Shown here piece after piece: positions 15,138-29,579 of a stretch of 33,217 bases of DNA. How positions within the stretch are numbered: the first letter of the stretch is position 1; every line of letters begins with the position of its first letter. Source of the stretch: Planctomycetaceae bacterium (GTDB lineage: Bacteria > Planctomycetota > Planctomycetia > Planctomycetales > Planctomycetaceae); NCBI GenBank assembly GCA_015485495.1, contig WFTL01000089.1:1-33217 (forward strand). Reading direction: 5' to 3'. The translations under genes and the position numbers were made by a program. The notes under the pieces were generated by a model, which saw only the letters and a list, made by a program, of their open reading frames with translations, was not told where the DNA came from and searched no databases.

Positions 15138-16517
15138 CTACTGCAGATTGTAGCGGTTCATTTTGTAATGCAGTGTGCGCACGCTGATCCCCAGAGCGCG
15201 GGCGGTCTGTTCCCGATGGCAGCCGTTGGCCTTCAGAGCTTCGCGAATCGCCTTCTTTTCCGCCGCTTCCGCGACTTCCGCCAGAGTGCGACCTTCTGTC
15301 GACTCTTCACGACCGGCCGATTCCGTCAGTTCGTCCGGCAGATCATCGGCTGTGATGCACTCGCCGGGGACGGTGACCACGAGACGTTCCATCATATTCC
15401 GAAGCTGCCTCACATTTCCGGGCCAGTCCGCACCGACCAGCCGCTCCAGGGCCCCCGCGTCCACGGTTTTCACCGGCCGCCGATGCCGCGTGCAGAAATG
15501 ATTCAGGTAGTGATCCACGAGCAGCGGGATGTCGTCCCGGCGCTGTCTCAAAGGAGGCACACGGATGGGGACGATGTTCAGTCGATAATACAGATCTTCT
15601 CGAAATTCGCCGTTTCGAACGAGCTGATCGACGGGACGGTTGGTGGCTGACACGATCCGGGCATCCGATGTCAGCAGTTCCTCGCCTCCCACCCGGAAGA
15701 ACTGACCTGTTTCCAGAACACGCAGCAGATCGACCTGGCTTTTCGCCGGAATCTCCGTGATTTCATCCAGAAACAGTGTGCCGGATTCCGCCTGTTCGAA
15801 ACAGCCGGGCTTCTGTCGAACGGCACCGGTGAATGCTCCCGGGACATGGCCGAACAGCTCGCTTTCCAGCAGAGATTCCGGCAGCGCGCCCAGGTTCACA
15901 GCCACGAAGGGGCCGGACGCCCGGTCGCTCAGGTCATGAATGGCCCGGGCGATCAGTTCCTTGCCGGTTCCGCTTTCTCCCTGAATCAGCACCGTGGCAT
16001 CCGTTCCCGCCACCTGACGCACCTGATCCAGCACACTTCGCAGCGCCGGAGAACTTCCGACCAGCCCGCTCACCTCACCGACATCCGCCAGACGGTTGCG
16101 GAGCAGGCGGTTTTCGGACTGCAGCCGGTGATGTTCTATGGCCCGGGACACCTGTTCCCGAATGAGATTCAGATCGACCGGTTTGGTAATGAAATCGAAC
16201 GCTCCCCGCCGCATGGCTTCCACCGCTGTCTCCACGGTTCCATGGGCGGTGATCACGATGGCCGTGGTGTCCGGATATTTCTGACGGACCAGCGACACCA
16301 GATCCAGACCGTCCCGGTCTCCCGGCAGCCGCACGTCAGCAATCAGAAGCTGAAACGAATCTTCGTCGAAACAGTCCAGAGCCTCATTGACCGATCCGGC
16401 CACCCGCACGTCCGCCAGTTTTTCCAGGCCTTTGGCCAGCCCGGAGCGGATGTTCGGTTCGTCATCCACGATCAGGATGCGAAACGCATCTTCCACGGAA
16501 GAATCATTCGTTGTCAT
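15138..16517 (-). CDS. NtrC-type sigma-54-dependent response regulator
   Basis: This 459-residue protein has the three domains of a sigma-54 activator. Receiver, 12-125: acidic pair D18-D19, phospho-acceptor D61 (LLIADVRLPG) and K112. AAA+ domain, about 150-380: Walker A GESGTGKE (180-187), the sigma-54-contacting GAFTGA loop (227-232), Walker B TLFLDE (247-252) and DWPGNVRQLRN (364-374). Fis-type helix-turn-helix at the end (REQTARALGISVRTLHYKMNRY). It should bind enhancer-like DNA and drive open-complex formation by sigma-54 polymerase. The ATG at 16517 overlaps the kinase stop by 14 bases, so the pair is probably translationally coupled; a GTG two codons upstream is an alternative. Possible targets are the sigma-54 promoters at 20488 and 27339. 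Confidence 0.95.
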   Translation of the reverse strand: MTTNDSSVEDAFRILIVDDEPNIRSGLAKGLEKLADVRVAGSVNEALDCFDEDSFQLLIADVRLPGDRDGLDLVSLVRQKYPDTTAIVITAHGTVETAVEAMRRGAFDFITKPVDLNLIREQVSRAIEHHRLQSENRLLRNRLADVGEVSGLVGSSPALRSVLDQVRQVAGTDATVLIQGESGTGKELIARAIHDLSDRASGPFVAVNLGALPESLLESELFGHVPGAFTGAVRQKPGCFEQAESGTLFLDEITEIPAKSQVDLLRVLETGQFFRVGGEELLTSDARIVSATNRPVDQLVRNGEFREDLYYRLNIVPIRVPPLRQRRDDIPLLVDHYLNHFCTRHRRPVKTVDAGALERLVGADWPGNVRQLRNMMERLVVTVPGECITADDLPDELTESAGREESTEGRTLAEVAEAAEKKAIREALKANGCHREQTARALGISVRTLHYKMNRYNLQ

Positions 16518-17874
16518 TCTCACGGACTTCCGGATGGCGAGGCAGTGTCACGCGAAACACGGTTCCGCAGTCGGAAGAACGGAAATCCAGACTGCCATTG
16601 TGCTGGCGAACGATTTTGTCGCACAGAGCCAGACCCAGCCCGGTTCCGCTGCTTTTCGTCGTAAAATACGGGTCCAGAACGCGATCCATCTGATCTTCCG
16701 GAATCCCGCAGCCCGTGTCGGCGACTTCGATTTCCACCGTCTGATCGGACGCGGTGGCCGTCACGGTGAGTCGGCCGCCGTCGGGCATGGCATCCATCGC
16801 ATTGACCAGCAGGTTGAGCAAGACCTGTTCCAGTCGCACGCGGTCGGCGGAAACTGTCAGTGGTCCGTCCGGCAGACACACCTCAGCCGTCACGTTCTGC
16901 TGCCCGGCCTGAGGCTGAATGAGGCGGATCTGGCGGCGGATGAGATCCTTCAGGTCGACGGTGTCCCGATTCAGCCGGCCGATGGAAGCAAAGTCGCGGA
17001 ATCCCTCCAGAACACCGCCCACACGAGCCACCTCAGTCCGAATGACGCCCAGCATTCGGTTGATGTCATCCCCGGGATTCGTTTCTTCGAGCTGTTCTTC
17101 CAGCAGCTGGACATGCAGCGACAGAGCCGCCAGGGGATTCTTGATTTCGTGATGCAGCCCGGCTGCCAGCGACCCCAGTCCCATGTACCGTTCCATGCGA
17201 CGCATGCGTTCTTCGGCCAGAACCCGGTCCGTCACGTCGCGCAACTGCAGAACCAGGCCGATTTCCCGGCCCTCATTGTTCGTCAGCGGCTGGCAGTACC
17301 CCCGCAGCGTGCGGCGGCTGCCGCGGAGCACCGTCTGAAAATCCCGGACCGGATCCTCCGATCGGTCCCGTATCCAGTCCTGCCGAAACGTGTCCAGAGG
17401 CAGTTCAGCCGAAAGTTCTGCCAGGGGCCGCCCCACGCATTCTCCGTCCGGTTCCAGAAGCTCCAGCCCCCTCCGATTGATGCTGGTCACCGTGCCGGCG
17501 GAATCTGTCGTGATCACCGCCTGATCCATGCTGCTCAGAATGTCACCCGTCAGAGCCTTGATATCGCGGAGCGATTCCTGAGACGAACGGTAGGCTCTCC
17601 ACAGGAGCACCACGGCGAAGCCCGTCACCACAAGATTCAGCACGACCAGAGCCGTCAGGCGAAACTGCCACCGCAGCTCCCCGGCCAGCTCCTCGGCAGA
17701 ATCCGCAGCTTCCCGGGGCAACTGGCGGATGAGCTGTTCCACGATTTCCTGCTCCCGCAGAAAATCGATCATCACCCAGACCGTCACGCCGAGCGCGGCG
17801 GTACTCAGAATCAGCAGACCGGCGACGGCCGCTCGGTACGTCTGATCGGTTTCGGATGGACGAACGCGAAACAC
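16504..17874 (-). CDS. Membrane sensor histidine kinase, NtrB/AtoS-like
   Basis: From a GTG at 17874 the product is 456 residues: helix at about 15-37, a short extracytoplasmic segment of about 35 residues, helix at 72-91, a PAS domain (about 107-215, MDQAVITTDSAGTVTSINRRG), HisKA with phospho-acceptor H242 in LHHEIKNPLAALS, and HATPase_c boxes (N box LLVNAMDAM, G boxes DTGCGIPED and SSGTGLGLALCDKI). The kinase partners the downstream NtrC-type regulator, whose gene it overlaps. The GTG is preferred because GGGGAC lies just upstream and hydrophobic sequence follows soon; an ATG at 17979 would add 35 Arg/Gly-rich residues. The signal is unknown; the small periplasmic segment argues for membrane or cytoplasmic (PAS) sensing. 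Confidence 0.9.
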   Translation of the reverse strand: MFRVRPSETDQTYRAAVAGLLILSTAALGVTVWVMIDFLREQEIVEQLIRQLPREAADSAEELAGELRWQFRLTALVVLNLVVTGFAVVLLWRAYRSSQESLRDIKALTGDILSSMDQAVITTDSAGTVTSINRRGLELLEPDGECVGRPLAELSAELPLDTFRQDWIRDRSEDPVRDFQTVLRGSRRTLRGYCQPLTNNEGREIGLVLQLRDVTDRVLAEERMRRMERYMGLGSLAAGLHHEIKNPLAALSLHVQLLEEQLEETNPGDDINRMLGVIRTEVARVGGVLEGFRDFASIGRLNRDTVDLKDLIRRQIRLIQPQAGQQNVTAEVCLPDGPLTVSADRVRLEQVLLNLLVNAMDAMPDGGRLTVTATASDQTVEIEVADTGCGIPEDQMDRVLDPYFTTKSSGTGLGLALCDKIVRQHNGSLDFRSSDCGTVFRVTLPRHPEVRENDNE

Positions 17875-18410
17875 AGTGTCCCCGCCAGGGAATTGTTCGG
17901 CCCGGACACCCTGACAGCCCCCCTGCCACGTTGCAGGCAACCGCCTGCTGCCGATCCGGCATGCCGGAAGAAACATCATTGCATGACAGACTCAGGCAAA
18001 CAATCCAGCCGGACTTCGGTATCCCCCTTTCCCACACCATGGTTCCCACGTCACTCCTTCAGAAACCCCGAACCGGTTCTTCATCCGACTGACGTGCTCC
18101 GGAAATTCCCGCCGTCCGTCGCGGTGGGCGGTCGACTCCATCAGATTTCCGACACATTTTCTCCGCCACTCCGATGCGGCAGCCTGCCGACTCCCTCTGC
18201 CTGCACAAACCTGCAGACACTCTGCATTTTTATGCATGATATTCAGCCAGAAGCGGACACTCACGCGTGCCGATCCGGAAGCCGCTTTTCGATCCGCTCC
18301 GTCGGAATCAGCCCCGACCGCTCTGATGTCTGCGGGCACGCCGGGAGATCGTCCGCTTCGATGGGCTCCACGGACGATCGTCCGGTTCAACCTGAAAAAC
18401 GCCCGCGTCC
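17875..18410. other. Gene-free stretch between the CA-like gene and the kinase gene
   Basis: Both flanking genes are on the minus strand, so this should hold the terminator of the carbonic-anhydrase-like gene and a promoter for the kinase. No sigma-54-type or strong housekeeping promoter was recognised and no open frame is convincing. The distance argues that the kinase pair has its own transcript. Confidence 0.4.
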
Positions 18411-20051
18411 CTACGGTTTGCGTGGTGTTCGCCGGGAGCGGCTCTGAACGCCGGTCTGCGACGGACGGCGATCAGCGGACCTGCTTCCTTTGGAAGAACG
18501 CCTTCCTTCCGAAGAACGCTTCGCGGAAGGGCGGCGAGACGAGATGCCGGAACGGCTGGTGTAGGCATTTTCCCGGTCGCGCATGCGATCGGCGGAAAAG
18601 TCGTCCGGTGTCACCACGTCGCACAGATTTTCGGGACAGACGATCAGTCCGTCGTCGGGATTCGGATTCAGCGGGAAAAACTGCTTGTAGGTATCCATGC
18701 CGCGAACACCGTGTGCATAGGAATAGGTGGTCATGACACGGACATTCGATTCGGCCTCGAACACGCTCCGAATCACGGCCATCTTCGTATTCATCCTGGC
18801 CAGCACGGTGGTGAATTCCTGCCAGGTGGCGATGGGAGTGTCCAGTTCGATGTTGATGTGGACGAGCGGATGGCGGGGCAGCCGGCGGCGGTCGGCCACG
18901 CTGTCGATCACATGTCTGGCGACGCGGATGGCCTGACGGTCATTGCCGCTGCCCGGCTTGACCAGCAGCATGTTGTTGTGCTTCGTGGCCGCTTCGAACC
19001 CGTTTCCGTAACCGATCAGCCGTTCGTCGTGGCCCACTCGGTGATCCAGCGCATCCGGATCTTCTTCCAGCAGCAGCAGCTGATGGCTCTGATCCAGGGC
19101 ATAGGCCACGTTCCACGCCATCAGGTACGCCAGAAAACCGGCCAGAGACTTCGGCAGCCTGTCGGCTCGACGAAGTGCTTCTCCGATCGCATCCGCCGCC
19201 GCCCGGCTGACGACAGACCGCAGATCGCCTCCGTCCGAACAGACTCTGTTGAACTGCTTCAGCAGATGAGCTTCCAGCGCGATTTTCACACGGGGACTGG
19301 CCACGGCTTCTGCCGGCGTTCCGGAGAACAGCGCCCGCAGGGTCCGGCCCTGAATCGATTCATGAGCTTCCGGATCATCAATCGGGCTGTCCAGAAACTC
19401 CCGGGAAAACACCTGAGACGGAGCCATCCAGCGATTGCGTGCCATCAGTTCCTCGGCATTGAACAGCTCCTCGCCGCCGGGAAGGTGCAGTTCCATGGCC
19501 CCGGTATCGGTGTTGGTCATGGCCGCCAGGGTGTACAGTCGATCTGCATCGGGAGTGCCGTACAGAGCGTTTTCAACGTCGAGTGCCTGGTCGATCACTC
19601 CCTGCAAAGCCCGGCGATCGGTGTTTTCCTTACGGTCGTGCGGTTTCGCATAGGCGGCACAGGAACCGCTCAGTGTCGATCGGTGCGCAGCCGTGATGAA
19701 CATGGCCGGCCGGCCGGGAGTCCGGCAGGCGGCCCGAATCATCCTCACACGGATAGGAAGCCAGAAATCCGTGTTGTTGGGGTCCACGATGGCCCGGTTG
19801 CCGTCGCTTCTTTGATTATCCACTGTGGTGGGCGGACACCCCTTGTGATCGGTCGTGTTGGTCCGGCCGTCCATGCACTTGCGGAGAACGATTTCCGGCG
19901 CCTCCCGGCGGAACTGGTCGATGGTCGAGGCCATTTCCCGAAGCAGGGCCGCGTTGCTCCGGTTTTCTGCCAGGTACTCCGTGAAATACGCCCTGGCGAA
20001 TTCATCCGCTCCCAGCGTGCCTGCTATGTTCTGAAGCTGTTTGGTCTTCAT
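18411..20051 (-). CDS. CsoSCA-like (beta-class) carbonic anhydrase homologue
   Basis: The 546-residue protein carries a beta-carbonic-anhydrase type C-x-D-x-R motif at C59-M-D61-G-R63, and a second zinc-ligand pair candidate at H123 and C131 (AAHRSTLSGSCAAY). Several further blocks resemble, from memory, the carboxysome shell carbonic anhydrase CsoSCA: SCAAY followed by DRRAL...VIDQALDVENAL (145-163), MTNTDTGAMELHLPG (178-192), and VGHDERLIGYGNGFEAA (339-355), plus a C-terminal half of similar length. The His-Cys spacing is wide, as in CsoSCA and unlike the H-x2-C of ordinary beta enzymes. Residues 499-546 form a Ser/Arg-rich basic tail. No carboxysome gene is nearby; instead dabA is divergent at 20641. 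Start: ATG at 20051 with GGGAAG upstream. Activity is inferred, not shown. Confidence 0.72.
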   Translation of the reverse strand: MKTKQLQNIAGTLGADEFARAYFTEYLAENRSNAALLREMASTIDQFRREAPEIVLRKCMDGRTNTTDHKGCPPTTVDNQRSDGNRAIVDPNNTDFWLPIRVRMIRAACRTPGRPAMFITAAHRSTLSGSCAAYAKPHDRKENTDRRALQGVIDQALDVENALYGTPDADRLYTLAAMTNTDTGAMELHLPGGEELFNAEELMARNRWMAPSQVFSREFLDSPIDDPEAHESIQGRTLRALFSGTPAEAVASPRVKIALEAHLLKQFNRVCSDGGDLRSVVSRAAADAIGEALRRADRLPKSLAGFLAYLMAWNVAYALDQSHQLLLLEEDPDALDHRVGHDERLIGYGNGFEAATKHNNMLLVKPGSGNDRQAIRVARHVIDSVADRRRLPRHPLVHINIELDTPIATWQEFTTVLARMNTKMAVIRSVFEAESNVRVMTTYSYAHGVRGMDTYKQFFPLNPNPDDGLIVCPENLCDVVTPDDFSADRMRDRENAYTSRSGISSRRPSAKRSSEGRRSSKGSRSADRRPSQTGVQSRSRRTPRKP

Positions 20052-20316
20052 GCCTGATCACTTCCCACTGGCCGCATTCCGCACACAGCCTCTGCTTCCC
20101 GCAAACGGTTCCCTTCCGTTCCGAAGGGCCCTGTCCCCGGACCGCCCGGAGGCTCTGAAGCCAGATACAGGAATGGCCGGGCGGTTCTGCTGCTATCGTA
20201 TCTCACGAGACCAGCCGTCGCGGAATCATTTCTCCGAAACAGACCGGAGACCGCACACAGCCGACATCGGAAAATCCTGATGAATCCGCTCCATCGGAGC
20301 ACCGGTCCGCTGTGAC

Positions 20317-20354
20317 TGTGCATAATCCTGCACATCAGGTGCAGTCATCTGCAG
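20317..20354. promoter_or_regulatory. Helically phased TGCA array, candidate enhancer-binding site
   Basis: Four TGCA cores start at 20319, 20329, 20340 and 20350, spaced 10, 11 and 10 bp, so they face the same side of the helix. They form overlapping dyads: TGTGCA-N6-TGCACA (20317-20334) and CTGCAC-N5-GTGCAG (20328-20344). The array is about 136-170 bp upstream of the -24 element of the dabA sigma-54 promoter, the usual distance for an NtrC-type activator site. Binding is inferred. Confidence 0.55.
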
Positions 20355-20487
20355 GCCAGGGAGGAGTCGGATTCGGCTTTCATCGGTCCGGGATCCGTTC
20401 CGAGAAATGATTGGGGCCGGTCGGAAGGCGGACTTTTTGTTTCGCGCCGCCTTGTGCCGGTCCTGGGCAGTGTCCCTGTCACGGCGA

Positions 20488-20503
20488 TGGCACGCCCGTT
20501 GCT
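20488..20503 (+). promoter_or_regulatory. Sigma-54 promoter upstream of dabA
   Basis: TGGCACGCCCGTTGCT matches the sigma-54 consensus TGGCAC-N5-TTGCW with GG at 20489-20490 and GC at 20501-20502, separated by exactly 10 bases. Transcription would start near 20514, leaving a leader of about 127 bases before the dabA ATG. Confidence 0.8.
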
Positions 20504-20640
20504 TCCCGAATCCGCCTGCATCGCCGATCTCAGCAGCGACAGTCTGCCGATCGCCGACTGAAACACACTCACCGTACCGGTTTTCCGGACAGCTTTTCCG
20601 GATGCCCCTGCAGCACACCGGAATCATCCGGCTTTCATGA

Positions 20641-23600
20641 ATGGCGTCGATCTCGCGGCGCAGGATCCCGCCCGTGACAGCAACATCCGTATCGACCGCA
20701 TCAGAAGCCGGCCGGCCCATCGAACCGGCAGGGGCATCTGCGCCCGGCGACGCAGAAGCGATTGAAAGAATCCTGGATGCCGTTCAGCACGCCGCGCACT
20801 TCCTTCCGGCTCAGGGACCGATCGAGGTTTTCGTTCATCACAACACGCTGCATGCGTTCGAGCATCTTCCGTTTCATGAAGCCGTTTCGGCAGCGCAGGA
20901 AATGTTCGGGGCGGAGCCGTACTTCACGGAGAAGCAGTTTCGTGATCTGCTGATGGAAGAACGAATTCTTCCTGAAGACCTGAAGGCGGTGATCGACGAC
21001 GACCTCGGAGAACGCGGTGACGAGATGATCGGTGGGCTGGCATCCCGCCGGAACATCCGGCTGACCATGCTGCAGCACAGCGTTCAGGCGGGATCCGACG
21101 CGGAACTGCGATGGCAGATCGCCGAATCGGACGCGCTGCGTCGTTTCCGTGACGATGTTCCTTATCGCATTCGCGAACAGCTTCTGGACAGAACCCGCGA
21201 ATGGATGAGCAACCCTTCTTCGCTGACGGCCGCTGACGTACGGGACGACATCGGACGCAGGTACGGCTGGAGGCTGGAGCACTGGCGGGAAGATCGCTGG
21301 GAAACCGTGCTTCTTCATGCGCTGTGGCGCATCTGCCTGAGCGGTGTGAGAGAGGTGCTTCAGATCCGCAGCGAAGACACGCCTTCGATCCCCCTGCGGC
21401 CGCGGGACATTCTGCTGCAGGCGACCGGAGACGACCCGGACCGCTATTCCAACACGCTTCTGATCCGCTTCTGCGCCGCCTTCCTCGATCAGGGCTATGC
21501 CGACTGGAACCTTCCGGATCGCGAGCAGGGACTGTTCCGTTCGTTCATTTCCATTTACCGGCATTCCAAAGGGCCGTTCGACCGGTGGATGCGCAATCTG
21601 CGAGCGGAGCTGCGGGCCCTGTGGAAATCGCGGATCACACCGGAACAGTCGATTCTCGACTCGCTCAGACTTCTGGGAGTGGCTCCCGAAGAATTCGACC
21701 GCTTCATTACCGAATCGCTTCTCGCCCTGCGCGGATGGGCCGGAATGGTGTGGCAGATGGAATCATCGGCCGACTGGGCAGCGCGGCCGGCCCCGCCGGG
21801 ATCTCTGCTCGAATTTCTCGCCATCCGTCTCATTCTGGACCATCAGGCCGTTCTTTTCTTCGGCGAAGAGTATCTCGGCTGCAACAGCAGTGCGACGGAA
21901 GTCATCGAACGCGCAAAGAAGCGGATTCGCCCTGCCGCCCATGCCGACAGTGAGCGCCGTGCGTTCGAAATTTTTCAGCTCGCTCAGCTTTCCGGGTGGC
22001 ATCCGCAGCAGCTTCTGACGCTCAGCCGCAGACAGTGGGCGTCACTGGTCCGTGAAGTGGAAACATTTTCCCACCTGGAACGCCGCCGATTGTTTCAGGA
22101 GGCCTATGAACGGCGTTACCGAATTCAGGCTCTGGATGCCTTCGCCATCCATTCGTCCCGCTGCCGAAAACGATCGCACGGATGTCCTGACACAGCGCCG
22201 GTGCCGGAAGCGGATGCTGCCTCGGCCGAGGCGGTTCGGGAAGACGATTCGACCTCGACCGGGTCGGACACTTCGTTTCCGGCCGCTGCTCCGGACGGAT
22301 CCCCGCCCCGCCCCCTGTTCCAGATCGTGTGCTGCATCGACGAACGGGAAGAATCGTTTCGGCGTCACCTGGAAGAAGTCGTTCCGGAATGCGAAACACT
22401 GGGAGCTGCCGGATTTTTTGGCGTGGCGATGAACTACCGGGGCATCGGAGAAGCGCACTTTCGCCCTCTGTGCCCGGTGAATATCCGGCCCGATCACTAT
22501 GTCCGCGAAGACGTCCCGTACCCGCTGAGAGAACTGGAACGGCGGCGGTCGTATGCCAGAAGGCGTGTTGGAGAAGCCACGCTTCTGGTCCATACCCGAA
22601 GCCGCACGTTTTTCGGAGGCATCCTGACGGGGCTGGCCGGATCGCTGGCGATGGTTCCCATGGTCGCTCGGGTTCTCTGGCCGCGGCTGACAGCCAGGAT
22701 CCGTGCGGTCGTCGGTCGGGTGGTTCAGCCGCCGCCGATGACACAGCTGGAAATCGAACGGTACCTGGAACCGCCGGGAGCGGACAACGGTCATACCGGA
22801 TACACGACCGAGGAAATGACGGACATTGTCGAAGGTCTGCTCACAGGGATGGGACTTTCGACCGTGTTTTCGCGCATCGTGGTCATCTGCGGACACGGTT
22901 CTTCGAGCTGGAACAATCCGCATGAAGCCGCTCATGACTGCGGGGCATGCGGCGGTGGACGCGGCGGGCCGAACGCACGGGCATTCGCCCGCATGGCCAA
23001 CGACTGGCGGGTTCGGGCCCGGCTGGCATCCCGCGGTATTTCCATTCCGGACGACACGACGTTTCTGGCCGCTTATCACAACACATGCGACGACAGCATG
23101 ACCTGGTACGACCTGGAACTCCTGCCGGCCTCGCACCGGAACGACTTCGAAAAAATCCGCGGGTTCGTGGATGAAGCACGCATGCTGAGTGCTCATGAAC
23201 GATGCCGCCGTTTCCATTCGGCTTCTCTCAGTCTGACTCCGGCCGAAGCACTGGAACACGTTGAGAATCGTTCGGAGGATCTGTCGCAGACCCGGCCGGA
23301 ATACGGACACGCCACCAACGCTCTGTGCGTGGTCGGACGGCGCGACTGGAGCCGCGGTCTGTTTCTCGATCGCCGCGCGTTCCTCACATCGTACGACCCG
23401 AAACAGGATGACGCCCGCGGGACCGTTCTGGAACGGCTGCTGCAGGCAGTGATTCCGGTGTGTGCAGGTATCAATCTCGAATACTATTTTTCGCTGGTCG
23501 ATCCGGTCCGGTACGGGTGCGGCACAAAACTTCCGCACAACATTTCCGGCCTGCTGGGAGTCATGAACGGCGCTTTCAGCGACCTGCAGCCGGGACTGCC

Positions 23601-23901
23601 CTGGCAGATGGTCGAAATCCACGAAGCCGTTCGTCTGCTGTTCATCATCGAAGCGGCGCCGCAGACCGTTCTGGACATCGTCGATCGCAGCGAAGCGATC
23701 GCCCGTCTGGTTCAGGGAGCATGGGTTCAGGTGGCCGTGATCGATCCTGATACGTCGGAAATCCATCTGTTTCGCGAAGGACGATTCCAGCGATACGAAC
23801 CGACGACCGACCATCTGCCGACCGTGGACAGGTCCGCCCGGTGGTATGCCGGTCACCGTGAACATCTGGGATTCGCAACCGTGTCAGAGGCTCTCAGATG
23901 A
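20641..23901 (+). CDS. dabA: DabA, CO2-hydrating subunit of the DAB inorganic carbon accumulation complex (DUF2309)
   Basis: DabA is a cytoplasmic, membrane-associated, beta-carbonic-anhydrase-like subunit that hydrates CO2 vectorially when coupled to its membrane partner DabB. The 1086-residue protein has the C-x-D-x-R motif at C565-I-D567-E-R569 ([20 protein letters not shown] region) and the other zinc ligands H752 ([12 protein letters not shown]) and C767 ([14 protein letters not shown]); the 15-residue H-to-C gap equals what is known for Halothiobacillus DabA. Other family blocks are [14 protein letters not shown] (65-78), [12 protein letters not shown], and the C-terminal [36 protein letters not shown]-like region. 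Residues about 505-558 are an acidic/Ser-rich linker, longer than usual. Start: ATG at 20641, no clear ribosome-binding site; a GTG at 20674 is possible. It is led by a sigma-54 promoter at 20488. Confidence 0.93.
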   Translation: [1086 protein letters not shown]

Positions 23902-24098
23902 CGACACCGACCGCCACAGCACCGACTGCGATGCAGGACGAACCGACACCGCCCGTTCACCCCTGTCCCGGGGCCCGCGCCGCGGTGACGTGTGCCGGTC
24001 ATTCCGGCAGTTGCGGTTCCGGAATGCGCCGCATCGCCGAACGTCGCGGGCAAACGCACCCTGTCGATTCCTTTCAGGATGAATGTCTGTCCCGATGA
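23898..24098 (+). CDS. Possible small protein coupled to dabA
   Basis: A 66-codon frame starts with ATGA overlapping the dabA stop (23898-23901) and ends 16 bases inside dabB, filling the whole dabA-dabB gap. The product is Pro/Thr-rich at the start ([19 protein letters not shown]) with several Cys residues in the middle, and matches nothing recognised. The ATGA junction and exact fit favour translation, but composition is close to that of random frames in this GC-rich DNA. It may be only a device to couple dabB translation. Confidence 0.3.
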
Positions 24099-25492
24099 TG
24101 ACTCAGCCGGAACTCCTGCACATCCTGGGTGTGGCGACTGTCGCCGCACCGGCATTTCTGCTGCTGGCCCTGGGCGGTCTGTGGCTGGCCGGTATTCCCG
24201 TCCGTGAGCGGACATCAGCTCATCTCACGCATGCGTCCGTGATGACCGGCCTGCTGGCAGCGGCAGGCATTCTGGTTCTGATGCTGACAACCGGTATACG
24301 GAACGTTCCGATTGAACTTGGCAACTGGGTGGAAATCCCGGAGGAACATTTCCATTTCCACCTCAAATTCGCCTTCGACCGACTCAGCGTTCCCTTTGTC
24401 ATCCTGTCCTTCGTGCTGTGCGGCACGGTGGGAGCATTCGCCAATGTGTACCTGCACCGGGAACCGGGATATCGTCGATTCTTCCTGTTCTATGCCGTCT
24501 TTCTCCTGGGGATGACCGTTTCATCGCTGGCCGCGACCATCGAAACGCTGTTTCTCGGCTGGGAGCTGGTCGGAATTTCATCGGCTCTGCTGGTTGCCTT
24601 CTTTCACGACCGAACCGCTCCTGTTCGAAACGGGCAGCGTGTCTGGAGCGTCTATCGGTTCGCCGATGCCGCGTTTCTGATCGCTGCTCTGACGATGCAT
24701 CATCTGACCGGATCCGGAGACTTCGACGGACTCATGGGAACCGGCCCGTGGCCGGACAGCACGGCATCGATCAGTTCCCGGCATGCCCTGTTTGTCGGTC
24801 TTCTTCTGCTGACGGCGGCAGCGGGAAAAAGCGGCATGATCCCGTTTTCCGGATGGCTTCCGCGGGCGATGGAAGGTCCCACTCCATCCAGCGCCATCTT
24901 CTACGGTGCTCTGTCTGTTCATCTGGGAGCCTATCTGCTGCTGCGAGTCAGTCCTGTTCTGGCAGCGTCCGTACCGCTGCAGATCTGCGTGATTCTGATC
25001 GGCGGAATGTCGGCCGTGTTCGGTGCCGTTGCTTCCCGCGTTCAGTCGGACGTCAAGAGCGCTCTGGCATTTGCTTCACTGACTCAGGTCGGCATCATTG
25101 TCGTGGAAATCGGTCTGGGGCTGCATTATGTGCCGCTGATCCACATGATCGGTCACGCCTGCCTGAGGACACTGCAGCTTCTGCGGGCTCCTTCGCTGCT
25201 GCGCGACCATCACACCCTGCAGAACGCCATTGGCGGACTCCATGCGCAGCACAACGGCGGGCCGCTGTCGGACATTCTGAGTCCGCATCAGAGAAACTGG
25301 CTGTACCGATTCGCCCTCGAACGCGGCTACCTCGATGCGTTCCTGGATGAATTCATCGTCCGTCCCTTCACACGTCTTTTCCGATACACCGATTTTCTGG
25401 AACGCCGCTGGACAGAATTCCTCAGCGGAAGCGACTCGCGGCAGTCCGTCTCCGAGGCCTTCTCCGATCAGTCGGTGGACGATCTGGGATGA
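24083..25492 (+). CDS. dabB: DabB, NuoL-like proton-conducting membrane subunit of the DAB complex
   Basis: DabB is the membrane partner that couples ion flow to DabA. The 469-residue protein is a shortened NuoL/MrpA-type antiporter subunit with about 12-13 hydrophobic segments. Channel residues are kept: W160-E161 in [16 protein letters not shown]249 in [26 protein letters not shown] (266-271), K325 in [14 protein letters not shown], and H358 in [17 protein letters not shown], the last block being typical of DabB rather than of complex I. The C-terminus lacks the NuoL lateral helix and ends in a soluble tail. The ATG at 24083 has AGGA just upstream, supporting this start. It follows dabA by 181 bases and precedes a second antiporter-like gene by 146 bases. 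Confidence 0.9.
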
Positions 25493-25638: not shown

Positions 25639-27132
25639 ATGACGGAACTGCATCTGCCCTGGCTGGAGTGTTCGATCCTGATTCCGCTGGTCACAGCCGC
25701 CGGCGTCCGCCGCATCAGCGAACAGGATGCGGCCCGACGAATCAGCACGGCCGTCTGTCTGGTCACGCTGCTGTGTACGCTGGGTGCCTGGGCAGATTTC
25801 AGCACCCTGCATTCATCCGCTGCGTCCGATCCATGGGACGTTCTTTCTTTGCTGTTTCACCGGCCCATGCTGGTGGTCGACGCCCTCAGCGCTCCGCTCC
25901 TTCCGCTGGCAGGCCTGCTGTATCTGCTCACCGTGGCGACCACCAGCCGCACCAAGGTCAATCGCTTCTCATTCACCTGGACCCTCATTTCGGAAGCCGT
26001 CCTGCTGGCCACGCTGAGCTGCCGTGATCCGTGGATTCTGACGTTCCTGCTGAGTGCTGCCACAATTCCGCCATGGATGGAATTTCGGATGCGCAGCCGG
26101 CCGACCCGAATCTATGTGCTGCACATGGGCCTGTTTGTTGTGCTGCTTGTCACAGGCGTCTGGCTGACCTATGCCGATCCGTCCCCTGCCGGGCCGTCTG
26201 TCATCGGAACGGGCCTCATCGGAATGGCGGCCCTGCTGCGCAGCGGCGTCGTTCCTCTGCACTGCTGGATCACGGACCTGTTCGAAAATGTTTCGTTCGG
26301 CACGGCGCTGCTGTTTCTGACTCCGATGACCGGTGCGTACGCTGTGATCCGTCTGGTCCTTCCGGTCGCGCCGGACCGGATGCTCCAGACCATCGCCGTC
26401 CTGTCGCTGACCACGGCCGTGTATGCTGCCGGCATGGCACTGGTTCAGACTGAATCACGACGCTTTTTCTGTTATCTGTTTCTGAGCCATTCCTCACTGG
26501 TGCTCGCCGGCCTCCAGGTCGTCACCCCCATCGGACTGACCGGGGCTCTGTGCGTATGGCTGTCCGTGGGACTGTCCCTGCTCGGGTTTGGGCTGACACT
26601 TCGCAGCGTCGAGGCGCGCACGGGACGGCTTTCTCTGAACCGTTATCACGGACTGATTGAACACACGCCCGTCCTGGCAGCCCTGTTTCTTCTGACGGGG
26701 CTGTCGTCCATCGGATTCCCCGGAACCGTGGGGTTCGTCGGGACGGAACTGCTTGTCGAAGGCGCGGCCGGAGTTTCCGCAATGGTCGGTCTGGCACCTG
26801 TCGTGGCAGCCATGCTGAACGGAATCGCCGTTCTGCACGCGTGGTTTCGGGTCTTCACGGGAACCCGCCGCGAAACAACCGCGTCCATGGAATGCCGCGT
26901 CAGTGAGCGGCTCAGCGGAGTCGCTCTGATCGCACTGATCATCGCCGGCGGCCTGTTCCCGCAGCCGGGGGTGTCATCACGGTACCAGGCAGCCGTGGAG
27001 CTCATGAACAGCCGCCACGAATCGCCACAGACACCGTCCGCTCAGGTGTCCCTGCAGACGGCATCGTTCCAGACCGTGCCAGGGAAACCGCTTGGCCCGA
27101 CAGACCACAGCGGCCCCGCAATACGTCACTGA
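25639..27132 (+). CDS. Second complex-I-like (NuoM/NuoN-type) membrane subunit of the dab locus
   Basis: The 497-residue protein is a Proton_antipo_M-type membrane protein with about 13-14 hydrophobic segments. It is most like NuoM: RSGVVPLHCWITDLFENVSFG (201-221) aligns with the KVPLFPFHTWLPDAH block, and LLTGLSSIGFPGTVGFVGTELL is a well-kept late-helix block. Two key residues differ: the TM5 Glu of active subunits is replaced (LLSAATIPPW, 137-146) and the TM7 Lys is Arg (R201). It may therefore be a structural or modified channel subunit. Residues about 455-497 are a Gln/Ser/Thr-rich tail. No clear ribosome-binding site is seen before the ATG at 25639. Position right after dabB indicates a role in the same complex; this is inferred, as characterised DAB systems have only DabA and DabB. 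Confidence 0.78.
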   Translation: MTELHLPWLECSILIPLVTAAGVRRISEQDAARRISTAVCLVTLLCTLGAWADFSTLHSSAASDPWDVLSLLFHRPMLVVDALSAPLLPLAGLLYLLTVATTSRTKVNRFSFTWTLISEAVLLATLSCRDPWILTFLLSAATIPPWMEFRMRSRPTRIYVLHMGLFVVLLVTGVWLTYADPSPAGPSVIGTGLIGMAALLRSGVVPLHCWITDLFENVSFGTALLFLTPMTGAYAVIRLVLPVAPDRMLQTIAVLSLTTAVYAAGMALVQTESRRFFCYLFLSHSSLVLAGLQVVTPIGLTGALCVWLSVGLSLLGFGLTLRSVEARTGRLSLNRYHGLIEHTPVLAALFLLTGLSSIGFPGTVGFVGTELLVEGAAGVSAMVGLAPVVAAMLNGIAVLHAWFRVFTGTRRETTASMECRVSERLSGVALIALIIAGGLFPQPGVSSRYQAAVELMNSRHESPQTPSAQVSLQTASFQTVPGKPLGPTDHSGPAIRH

Positions 27133-27548: not shown

Positions 27549-29579
27549 ATGAGTGAACCTGCTGCAGCCGATGCCGCCGCAATTGACCTCCAGGAAAAAC
27601 CGACGAACGGTCTGCGCGGACTGAAACACTGGATGTACGACCTGCGGTCCGGGTTCATGGTGGCCATGATTTCGCTGCCGTTTTCAATGGGGATCGCGAT
27701 CACATCGGGGGCCCCGCCGATCACGGGCGTGATCTCCGCCATCATCGCCGGATTTCTGCTGCCGTTCCTGGGCGGGTCCTATGTCACCATCAGCGGTCCG
27801 GCAGCCGGTCTGGCTCCGGCGCTGTTTTCCGGAATGATCGCTCTGGCCACGGCGGAAATCGGCAAGCAGGCGGCGGCAGGCAAAACGACTCAGGAACTGC
27901 TGGAAATCGGCTACCCTCTGGTTCTGGTCGCGATCTGCATCGCCGGGGTCGCCCAGGTGATCCTTGCCCGTCTCAAAGTCGCCCGTCTGTCGGCCATTTT
28001 TCCGGCAGCGGCGATCGAAGGGATGCTGGCGGCCATCGGCCTGATCATCATGGTCAAGCAGCTCCCGCTGCTTTTCGGAGTCGACTTCGAAGAGCACGAA
28101 TTCTGGGGCATGATCTTCGAAGCTCCCCACCACGTCGGACATATCTACACGCCCGCCATGGTGACCGGCGTGGGATGCATCGTGGCACTGTTCGTTCTGA
28201 ATTCGCTGCCCTTCCGTTTTCTGAAAGTCATGCCGCCGCCCGTGTGGGTCTTCATCTTCGGCAGCATCATCTCTCAGGCCGTTTTTCACATTCCGAACGG
28301 ACAGTTCACTCCGGAACAGCGGGAAGCCCACGAACTGATGAAACGACAGCTCGCACCGGAACAGCGGGCGACACTCATCAAACTCGATGAGGAACTGGAA
28401 GCCGATCTGGAACGAACCGACCTGACGCCCGATGAGCGGCAGGCGATCGCTGAGCTCCACGAAAAGATTGAGCAGGATCTCCGAAACGGCGAATTCACGC
28501 CCGAACAGGAAGAAGCCATCGCCCGACTGCAGCGGGAACTGACCCCTGAACAGATCAAAGCCTACGAAGAACTCCCCCATCTGGGATACTGCATCTACAT
28601 TCCGGAAGATCCGCTGGGAGGCATCCACGTGCCGCACTTCGACCGGATCATCAACTACCCGCATACCTGGCCGGTTCTGTTCTACGTGGTGTTCGTGCTG
28701 CTGCTCATCGACGCGACGGAATCACTGGCAACCATTGTGGCCGTCGACAAGCTCGACCCGTTCAAACGACGGTCGGATCCGGACAAAACGCTTCAGGCCA
28801 TGGGCTGCTGCAACCTGGCATCCAGTGTCGTCGGCGGACTGACCATCATTCCAGGAATCGTCAAAAGCACGGCCAACATCATTGGCGGCGGACGGACTCT
28901 GTGGGCCAACTTCTTCAACGCGATCATGCTGCTCATGTTCATGTTCGTGGCCCGCGACTGGATCAATCACGTTCCGCTTGCCGTTCTGGCCGCCATTCTG
29001 ATCTTCATCGGCTGGAAACTGTGCGGACCGAAAGTCTGGAAGCACACGGCCGCCATCGGCATCGAACAGCTCGGAGTCTTCGTGATCACGCTGATCGTCA
29101 CTGTTTCCACCGATCTTCTGATCGGGATCGGTGTGGGTGTCCTGGTCAAACTGCTGATGGACGTGTCTCTGATCGGACTGGCCAATCGACTGAGCGGCCG
29201 GGTGCGGCATCTGACCATCTGGCAGCGAATCCGGGAAATCTTCTACAACCCGGTCACTCGCAAAGAATCGACGAACGGCACGTATCACGTCTATTTCGAA
29301 CGTCCCCTGCACTGCTTCAATCTGCTGCATGTGATTCGTGAGCTGCAGAATGTCCCCGAAGGAACGGAAACGCTGTGCCTGCACTTCACACCTCTGGCCA
29401 ACGTGATCGACCACACCGCCGCCGAAACCGTGCTGCACTATCTGGAAGACTACAAACTGAACGGAGTGCGGGTGGAAATGGAAGGCTGGGAGAATTTCAC
29501 TCCCCTGTCGGAACACGAATCGGCCATCCGCATCGCGCTGGCAGACAGCGGCCGCAACGGCTCACCGGGCGTCGTCTGA
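27549..29579 (+). CDS. SulP/SLC26-family anion transporter with internal TPEQ-repeat insert
   Basis: This 676-residue protein has a SulP membrane domain: LKHWMYDLRSGFMVAMISLPFS at the start, GSYVTISGPAAGLAPALFSG (76-95), AAIEGMLAAIGL (154-165), DATESLATIVAVDKLDPFKR (388-407) and GGLTIIPGIVKSTANIIGGG (429-448). A STAS-like domain follows (about 575-662). SulP members carry sulfate, bicarbonate or other anions; bicarbonate (BicA-type) is favoured by the dab context only. Residues about 250-345, in a loop between membrane segments, form a charged helical insert with five (F/L)xP(E/D)(Q/E) motifs at 253, 268, 292, 316 and 331. Ordinary SulP proteins of about 550-600 residues lack it. AATCGATAAGGAC before the ATG supplies AAGGA. 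It has its own sigma-54 promoter and converges on pnp. Confidence 0.9.
   Translation: MSEPAAADAAAIDLQEKPTNGLRGLKHWMYDLRSGFMVAMISLPFSMGIAITSGAPPITGVISAIIAGFLLPFLGGSYVTISGPAAGLAPALFSGMIALATAEIGKQAAAGKTTQELLEIGYPLVLVAICIAGVAQVILARLKVARLSAIFPAAAIEGMLAAIGLIIMVKQLPLLFGVDFEEHEFWGMIFEAPHHVGHIYTPAMVTGVGCIVALFVLNSLPFRFLKVMPPPVWVFIFGSIISQAVFHIPNGQFTPEQREAHELMKRQLAPEQRATLIKLDEELEADLERTDLTPDERQAIAELHEKIEQDLRNGEFTPEQEEAIARLQRELTPEQIKAYEELPHLGYCIYIPEDPLGGIHVPHFDRIINYPHTWPVLFYVVFVLLLIDATESLATIVAVDKLDPFKRRSDPDKTLQAMGCCNLASSVVGGLTIIPGIVKSTANIIGGGRTLWANFFNAIMLLMFMFVARDWINHVPLAVLAAILIFIGWKLCGPKVWKHTAAIGIEQLGVFVITLIVTVSTDLLIGIGVGVLVKLLMDVSLIGLANRLSGRVRHLTIWQRIREIFYNPVTRKESTNGTYHVYFERPLHCFNLLHVIRELQNVPEGTETLCLHFTPLANVIDHTAAETVLHYLEDYKLNGVRVEMEGWENFTPLSEHESAIRIALADSGRNGSPGVV

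Follow-up and report, generated by a model that had tools for sequence, protein, structure and literature searches.

Sequence comparison suggested that the minus-strand gene at 18411..20051 probably encodes a cytosolic zinc carbonic anhydrase (CA) of the CsoSCA superfamily, standing in the CA position of a DAB locus. What is new is a branch that lies outside the Pfam models, occurs in 6 of the 170 genomes of one family and, in two of these, takes the CA position beside dabA. The stretch of DNA that was analysed (33,217 nucleotides, hereafter the window) is the whole of contig C89 of its own genome, G000, which comprises 4.67 Mb in 180 contigs. The features that concern this locus were as follows:

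15138..16523, minus strand: sigma-54 (NtrC-type) response regulator (Pfam)
16504..17979, minus strand: PAS histidine kinase (Pfam); a similar kinase is divergent from dabA in other sampled loci
18411..20051, minus strand: CsoSCA-like carbonic anhydrase gene, 546 aa, ATG start (profile evidence)
18414..18581, minus strand: Ser/Arg-rich basic tail, residues 491-546, not conserved
18702..19064, minus strand: C-terminal domain, about residues 330-450, with H341 and E343 (hhalign)
19452..19919, minus strand: catalytic domain, residues 45-200, with C59-x-D61-x-R63 and H123-x7-C131, invariant in six sequences (hhalign)
20641..23901, plus strand: dabA (PF10070, E 1.5e-234), with C-I-D-E-R and H-x14-C motifs
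24083..25492, plus strand: dabB-type antiporter subunit (PF00361/PF00662)
25639..27132, plus strand: second NuoM/MrpD-like antiporter subunit (PF00361; TIGR01972 under cut-off)
27549..29579, plus strand: SulP family transporter (PF00916; BicA model NF050096, E 3.5e-32, under cut-off)

A PTS EIIA gene was also located to the left of the CsoSCA-like gene, on the same strand as the kinase and the regulator. The open reading frame was as the sequence-only reading had described it, with C59, D61 and R63, H123 and C131, and VGHDERLIGYGNGFE (residues 339-353 of the window protein) in their places; H341 and E343 fell in a GHxExxxGxGxGFE-like block. No signal peptide was evident by eye in the window protein, so it should be cytosolic. 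A sigma-54 promoter pattern was absent from the scan of 17900-20800, and none was found in the sigma-70 promoter scan of 17900-20900.

Relatives and remote homology to CsoSCA

The closest relative (78% identity, range 77-78%) was found on contig WGMU01000036.1 of MAG RI_301 (G138:C179, match L004), and four further relatives, at 33-34% identity, all belonged to one other genus, g30 (G031, G374, G375 and G376). The count of six carriers in the family, with the window's genome counted, was obtained with a three-row profile (A1); in the phylum sample, the same profile recovered 1 of 199 genomes, namely the window's own. Single-sequence searches matched 3 of 59 genomes in the near-relative sample (own genome, G031 and one weak match that was later dropped) and 3 of 118 in the class sample (own genome, G138 and the same weak match). 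A wider scan of genome contigs with the single sequence gave L004 as the sole match; L005 and L010 duplicate the contig of L004, which was counted once. The weak match (L003; 28% identity over residues 274-384, E 3.2e-4) was rejected as spurious because its frame was short, broken by stops and without C-x-D-x-R. No match was obtained in plasmids and phages by tblastn with the window protein, or in viral contigs scanned with the three-row profile and with true CsoSCA.

Searched alone against Pfam (E up to 1), NCBIfam and the PDB (phmmer), the window protein gave noise only and no significant CsoSCA match. In Pfam it matched neither Pro_CA (PF00484), having H-x7-C instead of H-x2-C, nor DabA (PF10070). 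The models PF20686, PF08936 and PF20687 gave no match to the five relatives at E up to 10, and the same three strongly matched two true CsoSCA as a positive control. NCBIfam, including TIGR02701, gave no CsoSCA match in three of the six proteins, and its models do match true CsoSCA; PF20686 matched 0 of the 246 genomes of the phylum sample, own genome included, and no control genome matched either. When the profile of six sequences was compared with the PDB, the top four matches were 9g4t, 2fgy, 9skx and 9skr, all of them CsoSCA, with E values of 0.0013-0.0075; the next match had an E of 1.1. The best of these values is modest. The CsoSCA profile match by which the sequence-only reading would have its claim judged was thus missing for the single sequence and appeared, at E 0.0013, for the six-sequence profile.

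The six-sequence profile was further aligned by hhalign with four CsoSCA, two from annotated plasmid loci and two copied from PDB alignments, and each target was controlled by 40 column shuffles; the alignments were shallow (Neff about 2). The overall comparison gave an E of 3e-6, a probability of 88 and a score of 54.4, against a shuffle mean of 16.9 and maximum of 25.2. It was observed that the catalytic part scored 52.3 against the CsoSCA catalytic domain (shuffle mean 12.9, z 18.8, probability 95, E 3.9e-8) and that the C-terminal part scored 31.0 against the CsoSCA C-terminal domain (shuffle mean 12.7, z 8.8, probability 42, E 2.7e-4). At the level of sequence profiles, these results supported a remote homology to CsoSCA across both domains and, together with the PDB matches, bore out the CsoSCA likeness that had been claimed. 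The C-terminal half compared with the protein's own catalytic half gave a z of 0.3, at which likeness was undetected, so a pseudo-dimer is argued from CsoSCA.

It is highly improbable that the likeness to CsoSCA reflects convergence or a generic beta-CA motif in a separate beta-CA-like family. In its favour, C-x-D-x-R also occurs in DabA and in the canonical beta-CAs that were read, the single sequence had no CsoSCA match, and the catalytic part scored above every shuffle of the target against both canonical beta-CA (score 23.0, shuffle maximum 20.2, z 3.9) and DabA (score 27.7, shuffle maximum 23.6, z 4.0). Part of the signal is therefore common to beta-CAs, as would be expected of distant kin with a common zinc site. 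However, a z of about 4 is far under the 18.8 obtained for CsoSCA, and the C-terminal domain matched that of CsoSCA independently but did not match canonical beta-CA (z -1.0).

Active site, basic tail and host context

Table 2 of PMC9164163 lists the active-site residues of CsoSCA as C173, D175, R177, H242, C253, H397 and E399, and PMC12646314 gives Cys173, His242 and Cys253 as the zinc ligands. In the joint alignment, these seven fell on C59, D61, R63, H123, C131, H341 and E343, each invariant in 6/6 sequences; the last two ligands were spaced H-x7-C here versus H-x10-C in CsoSCA. The six-sequence alignment (window protein and five relatives) showed no variation at C59, D61, R63, H123 and C131. 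Its invariant Cys and His residues numbered five (C59, H123, C131, H341 and H398), and its C-terminal half was without invariant Cys. AlphaFold predictions of residues 1-492 and 1-205 from a two-sequence input (window protein and L004) had pLDDT values of 34.8 and 35.9.

By homology, C59, H123 and C131, together with a water, would hold the catalytic zinc, and D61-R63 would form the gate-keeping dyad. H341 and E343 would be contributed to the site by a C-terminal pseudo-domain that itself has no zinc ligands. We propose that the protein may be a cytosolic type I beta-CA of the CsoSCA superfamily, in a branch that current Pfam and NCBIfam models do not cover, and that it would interconvert CO2 and bicarbonate. 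It is very unlikely that the protein instead keeps a CsoSCA-like fold but has lost CA function and, for instance, regulates DAB or is a structural partner of it. Such a pseudoenzyme is suggested by the C-terminal domain without invariant Cys, by an H-to-C spacing three residues shorter than that of CsoSCA and by the canonical beta-CAs elsewhere in the genome (one match in G000 and two in G138), but the seven published active-site residues stay invariant at identities down to 33%.

The last 60 residues of the window protein contained 19 K+R versus 5 D+E. The corresponding counts were 8 and 12 in the sister from G138 (about 78% identical), and 6-7 and 10-12 in the four g30 relatives. The basic Ser/Arg tail, which the sequence-only reading had taken as a mark of the protein, is thus real and is peculiar to the window protein among the six; it is not a feature of the family.

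The gene had also been described as lying outside any carboxysome, and this held. A cso operon with RuBisCO around the CsoSCA-like gene was absent, judged from the window genes and from the RuBisCO large-subunit search, which gave no match in G000, G138, G001, G002 and G376 (5 of 14 controls matched). Partial matches to the large subunit (positions 2-171 of 299) were obtained in the g30 genomes G031, G374 and G375 (L048, L049 and L050) and are perhaps RuBisCO-like proteins. BMC shell domains occurred in 6/6 carriers, and their neighbours were read in G000 only. There, the BMC pair (L193, G000:C6) was accompanied by a PduL-type phosphate propanoyltransferase, an aldehyde dehydrogenase and a lactate/malate dehydrogenase. 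These neighbours suggest a catabolic compartment and no carboxysome; the locus is probably a catabolic microcompartment.

Position beside dabA across the family

The CsoSCA-like gene and dabA are divergent, with 589 bases between the two ORF starts. The back-to-back arrangement that had been noted was therefore confirmed, and the linkage recurred in a second genus, that of G138. The window reads response regulator, histidine kinase, CsoSCA-like gene, dabA, dabB, antiporter and SulP. In G138, the order is response regulator, histidine kinase, porin gene and CsoSCA-like gene (C179:84082-85710), followed 1.8 kb on by dabA (from 87548, same contig) and two antiporter genes; this locus stands outside the 85-locus count given below. 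Identities between the window and G138 were 78% for the CsoSCA-like protein, 59% for DabA, 76% for DabB, 68% for the second antiporter, 66% for the regulator and 49% for the kinase. The linkage in the two genomes may represent one event. Canonical beta-CA was found in 154 of the 170 family genomes and DabA in 128. DabA is thus so common that finding it in every one of the six carriers says little, and co-occurrence with DabA was set aside as weak support.

To compare positions, dabA loci were sampled as 100 stretches and 12 more from among the DabA matches listed. The stretches taken first included loci in which a beta-CA had already been seen close by, and later ones followed the sequence of the remaining long-form rows; at least a dozen of the long-form dabA rows listed, some without upstream sequence and most near the foot of the list, were left out. 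Among the 117 sampled dabA frames (fetched stretches, the window, L009 and neighbours), 17 had a canonical beta-CA upstream, always in the divergent orientation and never on the dabA strand. Of the 85 long-form sampled loci with at least 2.5 kb upstream, 16 had a divergent CA no more than 2.5 kb away, comprising 15 canonical beta-CAs and the CsoSCA-like gene of the window; the remaining 69 were without one. The 17 canonical cases are these 15 and two loci with shorter upstream sequence. A tree was constructed from 34 sampled beta-CAs, which are fewer than all those found, with the second beta-CA of G138 left out. The 17 dabA-divergent members fell on one side of one branch (support 99/99), and the beta-CA of G000 and the one examined from G138 fell outside this group. 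The clade divergently paired with dabA comprised L072, L073, L074, L093 and 13 other loci, in five genera.

The order in L072, L074 and L093 was response regulator, histidine kinase, beta-CA, dabA, dabB, antiporter and SulP. In L071, L116, L134, L140 and L157, the kinase adjoined dabA and no CA was found between them; L157 is from G378, of the same genus as G138. The pattern of loci is what a swap of one CA for another would leave, in either direction and in one or more events. In L066, L073, L092, L095 and L120, beta-CA-like frames were also seen downstream of dabA, at a distance of about 5 kb and in the same orientation; they may be either fusions of SulP with CA or CA genes in their own right. 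A gene like the second NuoM/MrpD-like antiporter of the window, which follows dabB, was present downstream in 64 of the 71 sampled loci whose sequence ran at least 4.5 kb past dabA, and a third component thus seems to belong to the DAB operons here. In several other genera, a pair of NtrC-type regulator and PAS kinase like that of the window (15138-17979) was divergent from dabA, and the pair is a candidate regulator of DAB.

In the four g30 relatives, dabA was not adjacent in the short stretches read; the neighbours encoded the phenylalanyl-tRNA synthetase beta subunit, a pseudouridine synthase, a glutamine amidotransferase, an LRR protein and a cytochrome c domain protein. The protein therefore need not adjoin dabA, and the link is not general.

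Free-standing homologues have been named CsoSCA2, occur in several phyla and were yet to be studied as of 2022 (PMC9164163). In variant two of these, the N-terminal part is cut down to about 40 residues and the Rubisco-binding part is missing (PMC9164163, section 6). A non-cso CsoSCA cluster without the hook has been described from a set gathered via PF08936, with genes near nicotinamide adenine dinucleotide or [Fe-Ni] hydrogenases or permeases (PMC11086599). The free-standing branch proposed by the sequence-only reading thus stands as homology without a carboxysome, and is not new as an idea because these descriptions were already in print. The window protein might be a divergent member of this published group, a housekeeping CA whose place beside dabA has no functional meaning. 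We consider this unlikely, though it deserves real weight: the 58 residues before C59 are much like the short N-terminal part of variant two, no link to dabA was seen in the stretches read from the g30 relatives, and some hydrogenase or permease neighbours reported in PMC11086599 could be dabB-like. However, PF08936, PF20686 and PF20687 miss all six proteins, and the family described in PMC11086599 was drawn from PF08936. In addition, chance does not account for the canonical beta-CA that 17 other sampled loci have in the same position.

Proposed role and comparison with known systems

The preferred reading remains that of a zinc CA in the CA position of the DAB locus. In the window's genome and in G138, the gene occupies the place that a dabA-linked canonical beta-CA has in several relatives, so its function is most likely that of the beta-CA. 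The suggestion of the sequence-only reading that the protein works with a CO2/bicarbonate uptake system was likewise strengthened, because other dabA loci have a canonical beta-CA in this divergent position. The role would be to equilibrate CO2 and bicarbonate for carboxylases, in a cell without RuBisCO, beside the DabA-DabB pump and the SulP transporter. Beside the pump, the enzyme may supply bicarbonate when the pump is off, or may keep the pool equilibrated for carboxylases that use CO2 and those that use bicarbonate. Control shared through the neighbouring two-component genes is favoured as probable.

A bolder and more doubtful possibility is that a third branch of the CsoSCA superfamily is a dedicated CA partner of the DAB pump in cells without RuBisCO and displaced the canonical beta-CA. 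If this were true, the CsoSCA architecture, with one active and one defunct lobe, would have served cytosolic CO2/bicarbonate handling beside DAB before or apart from carboxysomes, perhaps in contact with the pump. CsoSCA is usually studied as a part of the carboxysome, and a branch in a DAB locus offers a concrete partner and a testable role, which bears on the origin of the CsoSCA architecture. It also bears on the puzzle, raised in PMC8552792, of why a cell would have a CO2/bicarbonate pump alongside a CA expected to cancel its effect. Hydration of CO2 by DabA-DabB is regarded as vectorial (PMC13144422). A putative CA lies directly downstream of mpsAB homologues in three Firmicutes, MpsAB and CA expressed together gave no growth benefit, and a cytosolic CA was argued to undo the pump (PMC8552792). 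In the literature searched, with supplementary files outside the scope, we found no CsoSCA homologue reported next to dabA or from this group, and the main text of PMC9164163 contains neither 'Planctomycet' nor 'DabA'.

Compared with CsoSCA (2FGY, 8THM and 9G4T), the window protein has the same succession of domains (a catalytic one, then a C-terminal one lacking invariant Cys), the full set of seven active-site residues and a GHxExxxGxGF-like block. It differs in having 58 residues before the first Cys ligand, whereas the CsoSCA of L016 has 183, so the N-terminal hook and Rubisco-binding parts are absent; PF20687 matched neither the window protein nor the five relatives. Further differences are H-x7-C in place of H-x10-C, inserts between and inside the domains, the missing CsoSCA Pfam match and a host without a RuBisCO large-subunit match. 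CsoSCA2 and the non-cso CsoSCA are described as free-standing, with a short N-terminus and an active and a defunct domain, in heterotrophs too (PMC9164163, PMC11086599), and the window protein likewise has a shortened N-terminus and a full active site outside cso loci. Unlike that group, the window branch is missed by PF08936; the two are compared here through published descriptions. The DabA/MpsB proteins (PF10070) share C-x-D-x-R and distant H...C zinc ligands with the window protein, but they are pump subunits of twice its length with H-x14-C and a z of only 4.0. The dabA-linked canonical beta-CA (PF00484) belongs to another subclass, with H-x2-C, about half the length and a z of 3.9, yet it occupies the same divergent position beside dabA and is expected to catalyze the same reaction.
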